Below, one piece after another: positions 32,868 through 36,529 of a stretch of 64,000 nt of DNA. The notes beneath the pieces were generated by a model. The model saw only the letters and a list, made by a program, of their open reading frames with translations. It was not told the origin of the DNA and made no database searches. This stretch comes from Celeribacter sp. HF31 (GTDB lineage: Bacteria > Pseudomonadota > Alphaproteobacteria > Rhodobacterales > Rhodobacteraceae): the NCBI RefSeq assembly GCF_011806455.1, contig NZ_JAATOT010000008.1, positions 62,001 through 126,000 of the forward strand, given 5' to 3'. The stretch's first letter is position 1. Each line of letters opens with the position of its first letter. The position numbers were made by a program, and so were the translations under genes.

Positions 32868-33179
32868 TTATAGGGCGTCGATGGCGCGGCGGGCCCAGGC
32901 GCCAGCCTCTTGCGGATCATCCAAAGCGGCATCGGGCAGGGTCCAGTAGTTCATGCCGCGCCCGTTCTCCATCTCGAACTTCACGCTGCCCTCTGCGGCC
33001 AGCGCTTGGGCGAAATCGCCTGAAGCCTTGAGGTAAACCCGCCCTTCGGATGACAGGATCGCGAAAATCTGCCCGTCCGAATAGATCGACAGCCCGCCCA
33101 TCATCTTGCGATGGCTGAGCCCGCCCAAGGGTCCGAAGAGATCATAGATAAAGGCGATGTCTTCGTCTGTGACGGCCAT
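32868..33179 (-). CDS. TfoX/Sxy N-terminal domain protein, 103 aa
   Basis: Small protein with the TfoX_N pattern: DLFGPLGGLSHRKMMGGLSIY, then FAILSSEGRVYLKAS and MNYWTLPDAALDDPQEAGAW. Full-length TfoX regulates competence, but stand-alone N-domain proteins like this are widespread and of unknown role. Its ATG overlaps the stop of the upstream IscA-like gene (TAATG), so they are coupled. Confidence 0.87.
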   Translation of the reverse strand: MAVTDEDIAFIYDLFGPLGGLSHRKMMGGLSIYSDGQIFAILSSEGRVYLKASGDFAQALAAEGSVKFEMENGRGMNYWTLPDAALDDPQEAGAWARRAIDAL

Positions 33180-33541
33180 TATTTACTGGCGAGGCTTTCG
33201 TCGAATTTGATCGACTCGCCACAGCCGCATTCATCGACCACATTCGGGTTCTTGAACTTGAACCCGGATTCCAAAAGTGACACCTGATAGTCGATTTCGG
33301 TGCCAAACAGGAACATCTGGGCCATGGGCGCGATCATCACCCGCGCGCCGTCCTGTTCGACCAGCTCGTCCAGAGGGTCGATCTCGGAGACGTAGTCCAT
33401 GGTGTATTCCATGCCCGCGCAGCCGCCTTTTTTGACGCCGATGCGCAGGCCCATGGAGCCGTCCTTCTCCATCAGTTTCGCGATTTGCGTGGCCGCGGCG
33501 GGGGTGATGGTCACCGCTTGTTTTCCGGGGATGCCGAACAT
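33179..33541 (-). CDS. Iron-sulfur cluster assembly accessory protein, IscA/SufA/ErpA type
   Basis: A-type Fe-S carrier of 120 residues. The three conserved cysteines are in KKGGCAGMEYTM and DECGCGES at the C-terminus. ITPAAATQIAKLM and FLFGTEIDYQVSLLESGFKFKNPN are family parts. It hands clusters to apoproteins. sufT lies 2.6 kb away, but no core suf operon is in the window. Confidence 0.94.
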   Translation of the reverse strand: MFGIPGKQAVTITPAAATQIAKLMEKDGSMGLRIGVKKGGCAGMEYTMDYVSEIDPLDELVEQDGARVMIAPMAQMFLFGTEIDYQVSLLESGFKFKNPNVVDECGCGESIKFDESLASK

Positions 33542-33574: not shown

Positions 33575-34291
33575 CTAGTCGTTCAGGGCCGAAATTCCAA
33601 GCAGGGGAAGCTGTGCGGCGATGAACAGCACCGCCAGCGTCACCGCGATGGCCCAGCCGAAGGACGCCAGCGTGCCGATGATCACCCATTCGGCCTTTTT
33701 GCCCTCCTGCGCGGCCTCGAACCGCAACACGGATTTCGCGGCGACCAGAAAGCCGATGCCGCCGGGCATCTGGCCAATGAGCAACAGAAAAATCAACCCA
33801 CGTTCCAGAAGTCCGATCCAATAGCCGCCCTTGTCGAGGCTCTCGCCGATGGGGTTGGGCCCGAACTGCGCCATGAGCTTGCCCACCGCAAAGCCGCCCG
33901 CGCGGGTGGCGTAGATCGCGCCTGCGGTGAAAAGCATGGCTTTCGGCAGCCACGTCAGGCTGGCATAGGCGCCGGTTTGGAACAGGTCGGGGACCAGAAG
34001 GGCCGTGACCACGAGGGTCGCCAGATGCAGCGCCTGATCGGTAAGGTGCGGCAGGATCGTATCGGAGAAGAACCGGACCTTGATCGTGTCGATGGCGATA
34101 TGGGAGAGCGCGAGCGCATAGATCGCGGGGGAGGCGACTTGGCCGGTGGTCGCCATGGCGGTGAGGGCGACCGCGAGGAAATGCAGAAACAGGGTCTCGG
34201 GCCGGGATTTTTCTTCGACCATCCAGCCGGGTTGGAAGACGTAATCGGCGAGGACATGGGCGAGGAAGAGGGCGGCGAGGGTTTCAGGCAT
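33575..34291 (-). CDS. DUF3307 polytopic membrane protein, 238 aa
   Basis: Inner-membrane protein with six or seven hydrophobic helices. The family-typical polar residues inside helices are LAHVLADYVFQP, LHFLAVALTAM and ALSHIAIDTIKV, with repeated His and Asp reminiscent of membrane metal-dependent hydrolases of the YdjM type. ATG 34291 overlaps the satD stop by eight bases (ATGCCTGA), so the two are coupled. SatD and DUF3307 genes often occur as a pair, and their joint role is unknown. Confidence 0.88.
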   Translation of the reverse strand: MPETLAALFLAHVLADYVFQPGWMVEEKSRPETLFLHFLAVALTAMATTGQVASPAIYALALSHIAIDTIKVRFFSDTILPHLTDQALHLATLVVTALLVPDLFQTGAYASLTWLPKAMLFTAGAIYATRAGGFAVGKLMAQFGPNPIGESLDKGGYWIGLLERGLIFLLLIGQMPGGIGFLVAAKSVLRFEAAQEGKKAEWVIIGTLASFGWAIAVTLAVLFIAAQLPLLGISALND

Positions 34292-34925
34292 TTGATTGCG
34301 CTCCATCCAGTGTCTCAAGCGCTAAGATAACATGCTCGTAGCTTGCTGCTTTAAGGGTTTTTGTAACTGTTTGACGGGATTTTTTTAGGATTTCTGATAT
34401 TTGTGAAAAGCTCATGGCCTCTGGAGACATTGCCAGTTTCATTGTCTCTGCTTGTGTCGGAGTCCAATTTTGAAATATTGAGTCAGCTAGAATTATGGCG
34501 GCATCAATGGCTTGCAAGCTGTGATGAGCCATCCTGAAGTGTCTGCTCGTTTTCAAATCTTCGAGTTCTTCGCCGGATTGCGCAAAGACCGTAGCTGTCT
34601 CCTCATTCAAATCCGGCCCAATCTCGCCCTCAACATCCCCCTCGGCGATCCCAATATAGCTGTCAAACTCTTCCCCCAGCGCCCGCAAGGCCGCCCGAAA
34701 ACACAGCGCCGACCTGAGCGCATATTTCGGCTCGGCCAAGGCCACCTGCCAGCCATCGCCACGGTGCCGTGTGAAGTGGAGGCTCTGACCGCCCATCCAC
34801 TCCGCCTGCATCTCGGCGCAGTCTTCCAGCGCCATAAAGGCGCGCTCCACTTTTTCGGGCCCAAGCCCGGTGGAATTGACCAGATCGCCGGTGAGGACGG
34901 CTATTTTGCGGGTTTTATCGCTCAT
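34284..34925 (-). CDS. SatD family protein with C-terminal helix-turn-helix
   Basis: 213 residues. The N-terminal half contains VLTGDLVNSTGL (Asp14) and RGDGWQVAL (Asp57), 43 residues apart, followed by YALRSALCFRAALRAL and SYIGIAEGDVEGE. This is the order and spacing of the two metal aspartates and following helix in class III nucleotidyl cyclases, although the usual catalytic Asn-x3-Arg is not obvious. The C-terminal part (about 165-205, with ISEILKKSRQTVTKTLK) is a helix-turn-helix. By hand count the DNA of 34321-34500 is 40% GC, far below its surroundings, suggesting recent acquisition of that half. Its promoter holds three dyads. Function is not established. Confidence 0.85.
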   Translation of the reverse strand: MSDKTRKIAVLTGDLVNSTGLGPEKVERAFMALEDCAEMQAEWMGGQSLHFTRHRGDGWQVALAEPKYALRSALCFRAALRALGEEFDSYIGIAEGDVEGEIGPDLNEETATVFAQSGEELEDLKTSRHFRMAHHSLQAIDAAIILADSIFQNWTPTQAETMKLAMSPEAMSFSQISEILKKSRQTVTKTLKAASYEHVILALETLDGAQSNA

Positions 34926-34928
34926 GAT

Positions 34929-35006
34929 GCAACCAATATAGGGTGCGAAGCGTATTTCGCAACCATTTTAGGATGCATTATTCATTTCGCACCCAAAAAA
35001 GGCTGC
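34929..35006. repeat. Three operator-like dyads with exact 30-bp period upstream of satD
   Basis: Pattern GCAnCC-N6-GGnTGC at 34929-34946, 34959-34976 and 34989-35006. The half-sites are GCAACC/GGGTGC, GCAACC/GGATGC and GCACCC/GGCTGC, with A/T-only centres. The set fills the whole 83-bp gap between satD and the LysR gene. A 30-bp step is close to three helical turns, so proteins bound at all three would lie on one face of the DNA. Confidence 0.82.
34935..34962 (-). promoter_or_regulatory. Candidate satD promoter inside the dyads
   Basis: On the minus strand TTGCGA (34957-34962) and TATATT (34935-34940) are 16 bp apart. The -10 is the centre of dyad 1 and the -35 lies in dyad 2. Transcription would start at about 34928, only a few bases before the ATG at 34925, which has no Shine-Dalgarno, so the message would be leaderless. 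Confidence 0.5.
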
Positions 35007-35008
35007 GC

Positions 35009-35845
35009 TCATCCGAACCGTGCCTCTGTCGTCAGCAACTCCGCCAAGACCTCAAGTGCTGCGCGCACCGGCGGGTCGTGGCGGGCGTCGTGGTGGCTCA
35101 CCAGCCATTCGTCATGGGTGAGCGCCTCGATCACGGGGGAGACCTGCATCAGCCCCATGATCTCGCGCCCGGCAAAACACGGCAGGATCGCGCGTCCCAC
35201 GCCCGACACGGCCATGTCTGCGACGGAGCGGGCATCAGACGCGGTGGCGATGATCGCGTCGGGGTGATTGGCGCGCAGCCAGCGTTCCGAGGGCGTGGTC
35301 GCTTGCCCCGCGTGCAGCGTGACATAGCCCGAGATGCGCGGATGGGCGGCGTATTCGGCGTAGGTGATCTGCGACAGTTTGCGCCCGGCGAGCCAGCTTT
35401 GCTCCGGGCGACGGTTGCGGATACCGATGTCGGCCTCACGCCGCGCGATGTCGACGTTGGAATTCGAGGCCAAAAGCGCGGGGCGCCAAGGGCTGGCGGG
35501 CGTCCAAATCTCCGACAGGTGTCGCGCCACATAGCGCGTGGTCCAGCGCCCGGCGGTGATGCGCACTTTGGGGGCGTGGTCGCGGTGCTGAAAGCGGGAC
35601 AACCGTGTGGCGGCCTCGCGCAGCGGTTCGGCTTCTTGCAAAAGCGCGCGGCCTTCTGCGGTCAGGGTGTAGCCCCGGTTGCCGCGCTCGAACAGGCGTT
35701 TATTGAGGGCGCGCTCCAGCTCCGCCATGCGCCGCGACAGGGTCGGAAGCGACACGCCAGTCACCTGTTCCGCGCCCGACAATCCACCCGCATCGGCCAC
35801 GGCCAGAAACAGCGCATAGTCGTCAAGTTTGGGTGCATCTTTCAT
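35009..35845 (-). CDS. LysR family transcriptional regulator
   Basis: 278 residues. The N-terminal winged helix is LDDYALFLAVADAGGLSGAEQ then SLPTLSRRMAELERALNKRLFERGNRGYTLTAEG. The substrate-binding domain follows but is short and lacks strong markers. The gene upstream is divergent (35938), a usual target arrangement; satD follows downstream with 83 bp between. Ligand unknown. Confidence 0.9.
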   Translation of the reverse strand: MKDAPKLDDYALFLAVADAGGLSGAEQVTGVSLPTLSRRMAELERALNKRLFERGNRGYTLTAEGRALLQEAEPLREAATRLSRFQHRDHAPKVRITAGRWTTRYVARHLSEIWTPASPWRPALLASNSNVDIARREADIGIRNRRPEQSWLAGRKLSQITYAEYAAHPRISGYVTLHAGQATTPSERWLRANHPDAIIATASDARSVADMAVSGVGRAILPCFAGREIMGLMQVSPVIEALTHDEWLVSHHDARHDPPVRAALEVLAELLTTEARFG

Positions 35846-36154: not shown

Positions 36155-36529
36155 TCACATAAAGCCAAGCTCAAGCCGGGCTTCGTCCGACATCATCTCC
36201 ATGCCCCAGGGCGGGTTCCATGTCAGTTCGACATCGACCTGTTTGACACCGGGCAGGGGCTCGATCGCATCGGCCAGCCAACCGGGCATTTCGCCCGCCA
36301 CAGGACAGCCGGGTGCGGTCAGGGTCAAAAGCACCAGAACCTCGTTTTCGTCATTGATCTCAATCGTATAGACGAGGCCAAGATCATAGATGTTGACCGG
36401 AATTTCCGGGTCATAGACGGTGCGACAGGCCTCGACGACCGCTTCGTGCAGCGGGTGATCGGTGCTCGACGGTTTGATCAGAGGCGCCCCTTCGACAGGG
36501 CCGTCCTGGGAGTGTGCTTCTTCGCTCAT
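36155..36529 (-). CDS. sufT: SUF system Fe-S assembly factor (DUF59/MIP18 family)
   Basis: 124-residue SufT-like maturation factor. The DUF59 core is visible: ACRTVYDPEIPVNIYDLGLVY, TLTAPGCPVAGEMPGWL with the conserved Cys, and VDVELTWNPPWGMEMMSDEARLELG. SufT helps mature Fe-S proteins under high demand. It follows the pyruvate-kinase-like gene's region on the same strand and has its own terminator. Confidence 0.9.
   Translation of the reverse strand: MSEEAHSQDGPVEGAPLIKPSSTDHPLHEAVVEACRTVYDPEIPVNIYDLGLVYTIEINDENEVLVLLTLTAPGCPVAGEMPGWLADAIEPLPGVKQVDVELTWNPPWGMEMMSDEARLELGFM

Follow-up and report, generated by a model that had tools for sequence, protein, structure and literature searches.

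Can a small protein with the fold of a nucleotidyl cyclase, encoded directly before a membrane protein, be regarded as a signalling or defence enzyme, or does it serve a different purpose? This question is raised by two genes in a stretch of 64,000 nucleotides from Celeribacter sp. HF31 (contig NZ_JAATOT010000008.1, positions 62,001 to 126,000), which was analysed as a whole and is referred to as the window. The satD-like gene (34284-34925, minus strand) encodes a protein of 213 amino acids, here called SatD, with a cyclase-homology domain at about residues 5-125 and a helix-turn-helix (HTH) domain at about residues 137-211. It is followed by the gene of a DUF3307 membrane protein (33575-34291, minus strand) with 238 amino acids. 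The start codons of the genes were assigned manually; the ATG at 34291 results in the eight-base overlap of the two genes noted in the original prediction, and an alternative TTG start at 34318 gives a reading frame of 247 amino acids (33575-34318). The original prediction compared the pair with the Pycsar modules of bacterial defence. In our best explanation, to which we assign a probability of roughly 0.6, SatD would be a one-component transcriptional autoregulator that controls its own gene and that of its membrane partner.

The gene pair in the family

In the following, the family refers to the Roseobacteraceae/Rhodobacteraceae and the class to the Alphaproteobacteria, with Celeribacter assigned to the Roseobacteraceae. 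Of 198 genomes of the family, 38 encode a SatD-like protein, as do six named genomes of Celeribacter and Pacificibacter. The alignment used for most comparisons (A1) contains 36 rows, namely 30 of the 38 sequences, including that of the window, and those of the six named genomes. In all 36 loci a DUF3307-type membrane protein, recognised by eye on its motifs, is encoded downstream of satD (31 were picked by script and five by reading the frames), although at one locus (L013) it is cut by the contig end. At another locus (L017, 2109-2816) the partner is degenerate and no longer has the His and Asp residues conserved in the others, and satD and its dyad array are retained; this partner is not part of the 37-row DUF3307 alignment described below.

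A predicted operator array upstream of satD

The gap of 83 bp between the LysR gene (35009-35845) and satD contains the motif GCAnCC-N6-GGnTGC three times, as 18-bp dyads that follow each other at exactly 30 bp. Dyad 1 (34929-34946, GCAACCAATATAGGGTGC) lies 3 bp from the satD start, dyad 2 (34959-34976, GCAACCATTTTAGGATGC) 30 bp from dyad 1, and dyad 3 (34989-35006, GCACCCAAAAAAGGCTGC) a further 30 bp from dyad 2. By eye, a likely promoter can be read on the minus strand (34935-34962), consisting of TTGCGA (34962-34957), a spacer of 16 bp and TATATT (34940-34935), whose likely -10 box is situated in the centre of dyad 1 and whose likely -35 box overlaps dyad 2. Transcription would be predicted to start near 34928, about 3 nt before the ATG, and would yield an almost leaderless mRNA. 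Dyads placed over a likely promoter in this way represent, as far as the sequence can be read, the layout of a repressor.

The array recurs throughout the family. The exact pattern is present one to four times in 11 of the 36 loci, the window included (L001-L004, L008, L031-L036), with steps of 30 bp except for L034 (120 bp) and L003 (a single dyad). In more distant relatives, the dyad is altered (GCAAGC..., TCAAGC..., GAAAGC...) and its position and spacing are kept. The arrays were evaluated against mononucleotide shuffles, with 200 shuffles for the 36 family loci, 40 for loci of another class and 60 for the named plasmid loci. An array with a p value of 0.01 or less was detected in 32 of the 36 upstream regions, 31 of which surpassed all shuffles, and the period was 29 bp in 20, 30 bp in 11 and 28 bp in one of them. 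The loci without an array are L006, L019 and L029, which encode the three proteins with Gln184; the fourth, L026, reached p 0.02. Outside the class, 5 of 9 upstream regions exceeded all shuffles (L086, L087, L089, L094, L095), as did 3 of the 5 named plasmid loci with periods of 28-29 bp (L106 from Haloplanus, L220 from Vibrio and L221 from Salinivibrio); the shuffle test gave no dyad array at the plasmid loci L104 and L105. In the genome of HF31 itself the exact dyad pattern occurs at 14 places, compared with 3 for the reversed pattern used as control, and only the three dyads upstream of satD form an array.

The sequence of the half-sites changes together with that of the HTH domain. Proteins with Arg184 in the recognition helix are accompanied by a half-site with G as first base in 24 of 25 cases, and in the exception, L034, the register used for scoring had slipped, with G as first base of its own proximal dyad. 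Where position 184 is not Arg, the first base is T (7/7); among these, the scored register of L016 also appears to be slipped, with T as first base either way, and in L021 T starts three of the four half-sites. Over the 32 rows, operator distance was correlated with recognition-helix distance when the distance of the N-terminal domain was controlled for (partial Mantel r 0.35, p 2e-4). At three family loci with DUF3307 and no satD (L062, L064, L065) no array was found (p 0.58-0.99), and these loci constitute a natural control. As the dyads covary with the HTH domain and change in sequence at constant period and position, their explanation as a terminator, a CRISPR array or iterons was rejected.

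SatD thus has the two features by which a one-component autoregulator can be recognised, a DNA-binding domain and a predicted operator in its own promoter. Taken from sequence comparison, the array, together with the way it covaries with the HTH domain, points to a transcriptional autoregulator, a role that the earlier reading missed, and we consider it very probable that SatD regulates its own expression through the ladder of dyads. The three phased putative operators, the recurrence of the array and the covariation of half-site and recognition helix are new here.

A cyclase fold without conserved catalytic residues

The sequence elements from which a relation to class III nucleotidyl cyclases had been suspected, namely TGDLVNST (Asp14), RGDGWQ (Asp57, 43 residues further on), an Ala-rich stretch and IGIAEGDVE, are all present in the SatD-like reading frame. 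Direct scans of the window proteins against Pfam, NCBIfam and PADLOC returned nothing for the cyclase part, so that a family-wide profile was needed. When the 36-row SatD profile was compared with the PDB, class III cyclases were reached, with the cyclase Ma1120 as best match (E 5e-6 to 3.9e-5) in an alignment that spans profile positions 5-99 and superimposes both metal-binding Asp residues. In a Foldseek search with the predicted SatD structure, cyclases head the list as well (Ma1120, Cya2 and Rv1900c), with two rows at E values below 1e-3. In all 51 aligned homologues, among them the window protein, Asp14 and Asp57 are unchanged, so that the pattern is not due to chance. The N-terminal half of SatD therefore very probably shares its ancestry with class III cyclases, with which it has in common the ferredoxin-like cyclase-homology fold, as judged from sequence profile and predicted structure, and the two aligned metal Asp residues.

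Active class III cyclases possess a purine-binding Lys, which is a Glu in guanylyl cyclases, as well as a transition-state Asn and Arg. In contrast to these enzymes, neither the Asn nor the Lys is conserved among the 51 SatD homologues. Position 53, equivalent to the purine-binding Lys according to the alignment of hidden Markov models (HMMs) with cyclases, is Arg in 38 of the 51, Ile in 5, Val in 3, Leu in 2 and Gln in 1. By manual alignment, the place of the catalytic Asn (position 115) is mainly occupied by V, T or I, and that of the Arg (position 119) holds Arg in 31 of the 51 and Glu in the window protein. The cyclase assignment was thus correct for ancestry and probably not for activity. 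A further difference is the direct fusion of SatD to a small HTH domain, by which DNA would become the target.

SatD could also be imagined as the receptor of a separate cyclase. However, no class III cyclase was detected at E 1e-10 in 27 of the 38 satD genomes, among them that of HF31, which argues against a plain receptor role of SatD for an enzyme of this kind. An HMM built from four cyclases adjacent to DUF3307 genes (described below) matched nothing in the window or in L031-L036, the SatD domain included, and there is no additional cyclase near the satD loci of the window and L031-L036.

The C-terminal domain and the SatD family

The HTH domain noted in the original prediction is supported by the structural model, in which residues 141-210 reach block pLDDT values of 77-93, and by weak matches of the family members to many HTH families. 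The C-terminal domain (about residues 137-211) is all-helical in the model, with no wing strands predicted. A cyclase-homology domain joined to an HTH is shared with the actinobacterial cyclase-LuxR proteins, which are reportedly large and combine several domains, among them an ATPase part and a LuxR HTH, in contrast to the approximately 210 amino acids and the one small HTH domain of SatD.

The name SatD was not supported directly, as the window protein has no match to PF16264 (SatD) up to E 1 and does not attain the gathering score of 29 bits. Among the 36 family members one match was obtained (E 0.052), and the PF16264 search of the HF31 genome gave none, as was also the case for the control genomes, which makes this search uninformative. 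Of nine relatives from another class, six give a PF16264 match with an E value of at most 0.1 (best 4.8e-8), and in the genome search its cut-off was not reached by any of 10 genomes from another class. A profile of 45 SatD relatives led to a haloarchaeal protein (E 6.6e-17) that is itself a clear member of PF16264 (E 8.5e-32), and the comparison of alignments A1 and A4 with hhalign gave an E value of 2.2e-44. From these sequence comparisons, the name appears to be supported indirectly, through relatives of which those from another class match weakly and the haloarchaeal one clearly, and the order SatD-DUF3307 is common to them.

In the literature, satD is described as essential in emm1, emm28 and emm49 strains of Streptococcus pyogenes by transposon analysis, and a link of Streptococcus mutans SatD to acid tolerance is cited, both in PMC11323703; PMC10326533 and PMC5786311 also mention SatD, the former for Fusobacterium. 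In the open-access literature searched, the expression 'SatD family' appears in a single paper. In titles and abstract beginnings of the open-access literature, subscription papers and preprints not being covered, SatD is not described as a cyclase-fold regulator.

The DUF3307 membrane protein

The partner matches the Pfam family DUF3307 (PF11750) with an E value of 8.9e-15 and 55.3 bits, compared with a gathering score of 23 bits, and this is its sole Pfam match up to E 1; it also matches phrog_2470. The model is all-helical, with four main helices in the first approximately 110 residues (block pLDDT 79-95) and lower values in the rest. Columns of Asp, His, Lys and Gln are invariant in the 37 aligned rows, and in a broader alignment of 51 rows, of which 44 stem from 76 viral loci after removal of near-duplicates and three others, H12, D16, H64, D68, K71, D85, Q86 and H89 are invariant. 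The earlier description as a polytopic membrane protein with conserved His and Asp residues therefore agrees with the family match, the helical model and the invariant columns. In the helices, the invariant residues are spaced 3-4 apart, which, judged from the model, is as would be expected of a polar or metal site within the membrane. No solved structure related to DUF3307 was found; in the open-access literature searched, the family is named in a single paper (PMC8504454). Whether it is a membrane enzyme or transporter linked to signalling is, in our estimation, evenly balanced.

Matches to PF11750 were found in 37 of 398 genomes of the wider phylum, 30 of which became loci. Outside the class, satD precedes DUF3307 at all 10 loci (L050-L059), and it is present at 8 of the 12 family loci with a long DUF3307 (L037-L039, L060-L068), the four without it being L062, L064, L065 and L067. 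The remaining 8 of the 30 loci (L043, L069-L075) contain shorter forms of DUF3307, and satD is absent. SatD-DUF3307 pairs also occur on plasmids of Sphingomonas, Vibrio, Salinivibrio and Segatella and in the haloarchaeon Haloplanus. In Fusobacterium (L222), a frame that looks by eye like SatD overlaps DUF3307, and the SatD profile does not match it at E 1e-3. Short DUF3307 proteins are carried by phages (193 of 50,697 phage records and 76 IMG/VR loci); none of the 76 loci contains a match to the SatD profile, and the alignment search found no viral SatD relative. In Salmonella phage fuchur (L107, 1607-3345), a DUF3307-type protein is encoded directly after the genes of dihydrofolate reductase and thymidylate synthase, and plasmids of 3.8-4.4 kb from Klebsiella and E. 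coli carry a DUF3307-like gene (H39, H44-H49).

This distribution bears on the possibility that the pair is an addiction unit resembling toxin-antitoxin systems, in which DUF3307 would be harmful when overproduced and SatD would be the safeguarding repressor. The overlapping genes and the predicted operator of the autoregulation type would be consistent with such a unit, as would the essentiality of satD in S. pyogenes although 178 of 249 genomes carry it (PMC11323703). However, DUF3307 persists at the same place without satD at four family loci and occurs on IMG/VR contigs with no SatD match near it, and we consider an addiction unit unlikely.

Association of DUF3307 with cyclic-nucleotide genes

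The neighbours of DUF3307 (59 proteins) were surveyed at 18 loci whose DUF3307 is of a shorter form and that lack a SatD match; 17 of these loci belong to the class and one (L100) does not. Eight of the 59 contain a domain that binds cyclic nucleotides (cNMP) and six a cyclase catalytic domain. A cyclase is encoded directly upstream of DUF3307 in L076 and L077, directly downstream in L082, and adjoining in convergent orientation in L080; in L078 (574-3995) and L081 (6430-9875), a class III cyclase gene is followed by the gene of an MscS-cNMP channel, convergent with DUF3307. In the 17 alphaproteobacterial genomes with a DUF3307 match, six cases of a class III cyclase no more than 3 kb from a satD-free DUF3307 were thus seen, compared with 0.17 expected from the cyclase counts of these genomes (Poisson 3e-8), a value to be read with the distance and the chance estimate having been set after the first cases were seen and with L078 and L081 sharing their gene order. 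From 27 plasmid records with a short DUF3307, six were fetched, one of them chosen because the listing already showed a cyclase: in four Rhizobiaceae plasmids (L214, L215, L217, L218) a cyclase stands directly before DUF3307, and in those of Ruegeria (L216) and Cupriavidus (L219) it does not. In lineages outside the satD loci, the DUF3307 family is tied to cyclic-nucleotide genes.

Several single arrangements were also noted. The Rhizobium plasmids L214, L215 and L217 share a conserved row of DoxX, FAD oxidoreductase, cyclase and DUF3307, and on the Ruegeria megaplasmid L216 (185-3154) the gene of an ABC transporter, which matches a cNMP-binding domain weakly, is divergent from DUF3307. Weak cNMP-binding matches near DUF3307 are also present in L079 and L101. 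The phage-like contig L108 (2989-6362) contains a short DUF3307 and, 2.5 kb away, a frame for a class III cyclase that continues up to the end of the locus.

Genomic context and the question of defence

On the minus strand of the window, the gene order is DUF59-type, LysR, satD, DUF3307, HesB/IscA-type and TfoX-like, in which the neighbours are what we take, from their sequences, to be DUF59/SufT, HesB/IscA and TfoX genes. The DUF59/SufT-like gene (36155-36529, minus strand) upstream and the HesB/IscA-type gene (33179-33541, minus strand) downstream served as markers of a fixed place. An IscA-type gene is present in 61 of 61 family genomes. Among the 30 best loci of these, six have satD-DUF3307 just upstream of IscA and 16 have the DUF59 end motif upstream of it, within 300 bp in 11 of them, a configuration that by sequence resembles the unoccupied site; the other 8 gave no clear assignment. 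Viewed from satD, the DUF59 end motif is no more than 420 bp upstream in 29 of the 36 loci, and L062, L064, L065 and L067 show the order DUF59, DUF3307, IscA with no satD. Since occupied, apparently empty and satD-free forms of the DUF59-IscA place exist, the pair is a cassette gained or lost at a housekeeping position in the family, and the window locus appears to be such a fixed position and not a defence island.

This position could suggest a housekeeping role for the pair, as an accessory to the iron-sulphur (DUF59/IscA) genes beside it, in accordance with the frequent DUF59 motif upstream and the IscA-type gene downstream in six pair-bearing loci. Such a role is very unlikely in our view, as other genes are annotated next to the pair on five plasmids (Sphingomonas, Segatella, Haloplanus, Vibrio and Salinivibrio) and satD's own array separates the pair from the upstream gene.

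Pycsar, which we take to consist of the PycC cyclase and the PycTM effector, resembles the pair in that a gene with a cyclase fold adjoins that of a small membrane protein. SatD could accordingly be an unconventional active cyclase whose product would gate or activate DUF3307 in the manner of Pycsar, with the HTH as an added feedback loop. The retained fold with both metal Asp residues and the real cyclases that adjoin DUF3307 in other lineages would fit such an enzyme, and in a single case, on a Sphingomonas insulae plasmid (L104, 3201-7652), a SatD-DUF3307 pair faces the genes of a Pycsar effector (PycTM E 2.9e-14), an E2-associated protein and a cyclase in convergent orientation, and a TIR gene is also nearby. 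The partner in the window, however, is DUF3307 with no match to PycTM, the catalytic residues are not conserved in SatD, which instead has an HTH and an operator array, and in the family the pair occupies a fixed place before an IscA-type gene. An active cyclase is therefore quite unlikely, and the reading as a cyclase-effector defence pair was not upheld; from the comparison with Pycsar, the tie of the DUF3307 family to cyclic-nucleotide genes elsewhere remains.

Regarding defence in general, the neighbourhoods speak against a defence island in the family, and the Sphingomonas pair beside Pycsar genes speaks for a link. At E 1e-10, 40 PADLOC families were matched among 69 neighbours of nine pairs from another class, the 25 of them that were listed each in one or two proteins and including PDC-S15 (5.5e-47), mad3 (1.6e-33) and mREase_IV (3.5e-32); these matches were not placed by locus and were counted neither as support nor as exclusion of a defence role. 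Ten chosen neighbours compared with PADLOC gave one match (GlgB type). In some lineages the pair may thus be linked to defence.

Proposed mechanism and significance

For SatD as a one-component autoregulator, we infer the ligand and the purpose of the pair as follows. Dimers of SatD would occupy adjacent dyads in a cooperative manner and would repress the satD-DUF3307 genes. The domain related to cyclases would bind a metal-nucleotide or another small ligand at its kept metal site without cyclisation, and the ligand would alter DNA binding; we give non-catalytic sensing of a nucleotide or metal an even chance. DUF3307 would be a membrane enzyme or transporter with a His/Asp/Lys site within the membrane, whose dose would be controlled through SatD in the lineage of the window and whose activity may be coupled to real cyclases or cNMP-binding proteins in other lineages.

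No mechanism was found for either family in the papers examined, and the one proposed here can be tested on a type of gene, satD, that has been described as accessory and yet essential. It would mean that a cyclase fold was put to new use as the sensory part of a small repressor that binds DNA, for which predicted operators with a rule relating residue to base are available at 32 loci, and it would link DUF3307, which is also borne by phages, to cyclic-nucleotide signalling. Tentatively, SatD may represent a class of one-component transcription factors common to Bacteria and haloarchaea, in which a former cyclase domain would serve as nucleotide or metal sensor of an HTH repressor on a helically phased ladder, and DUF3307 would take part in nucleotide signalling, wired, depending on the lineage, to genuine cyclases and cNMP-binding channels or to a pseudo-cyclase repressor.
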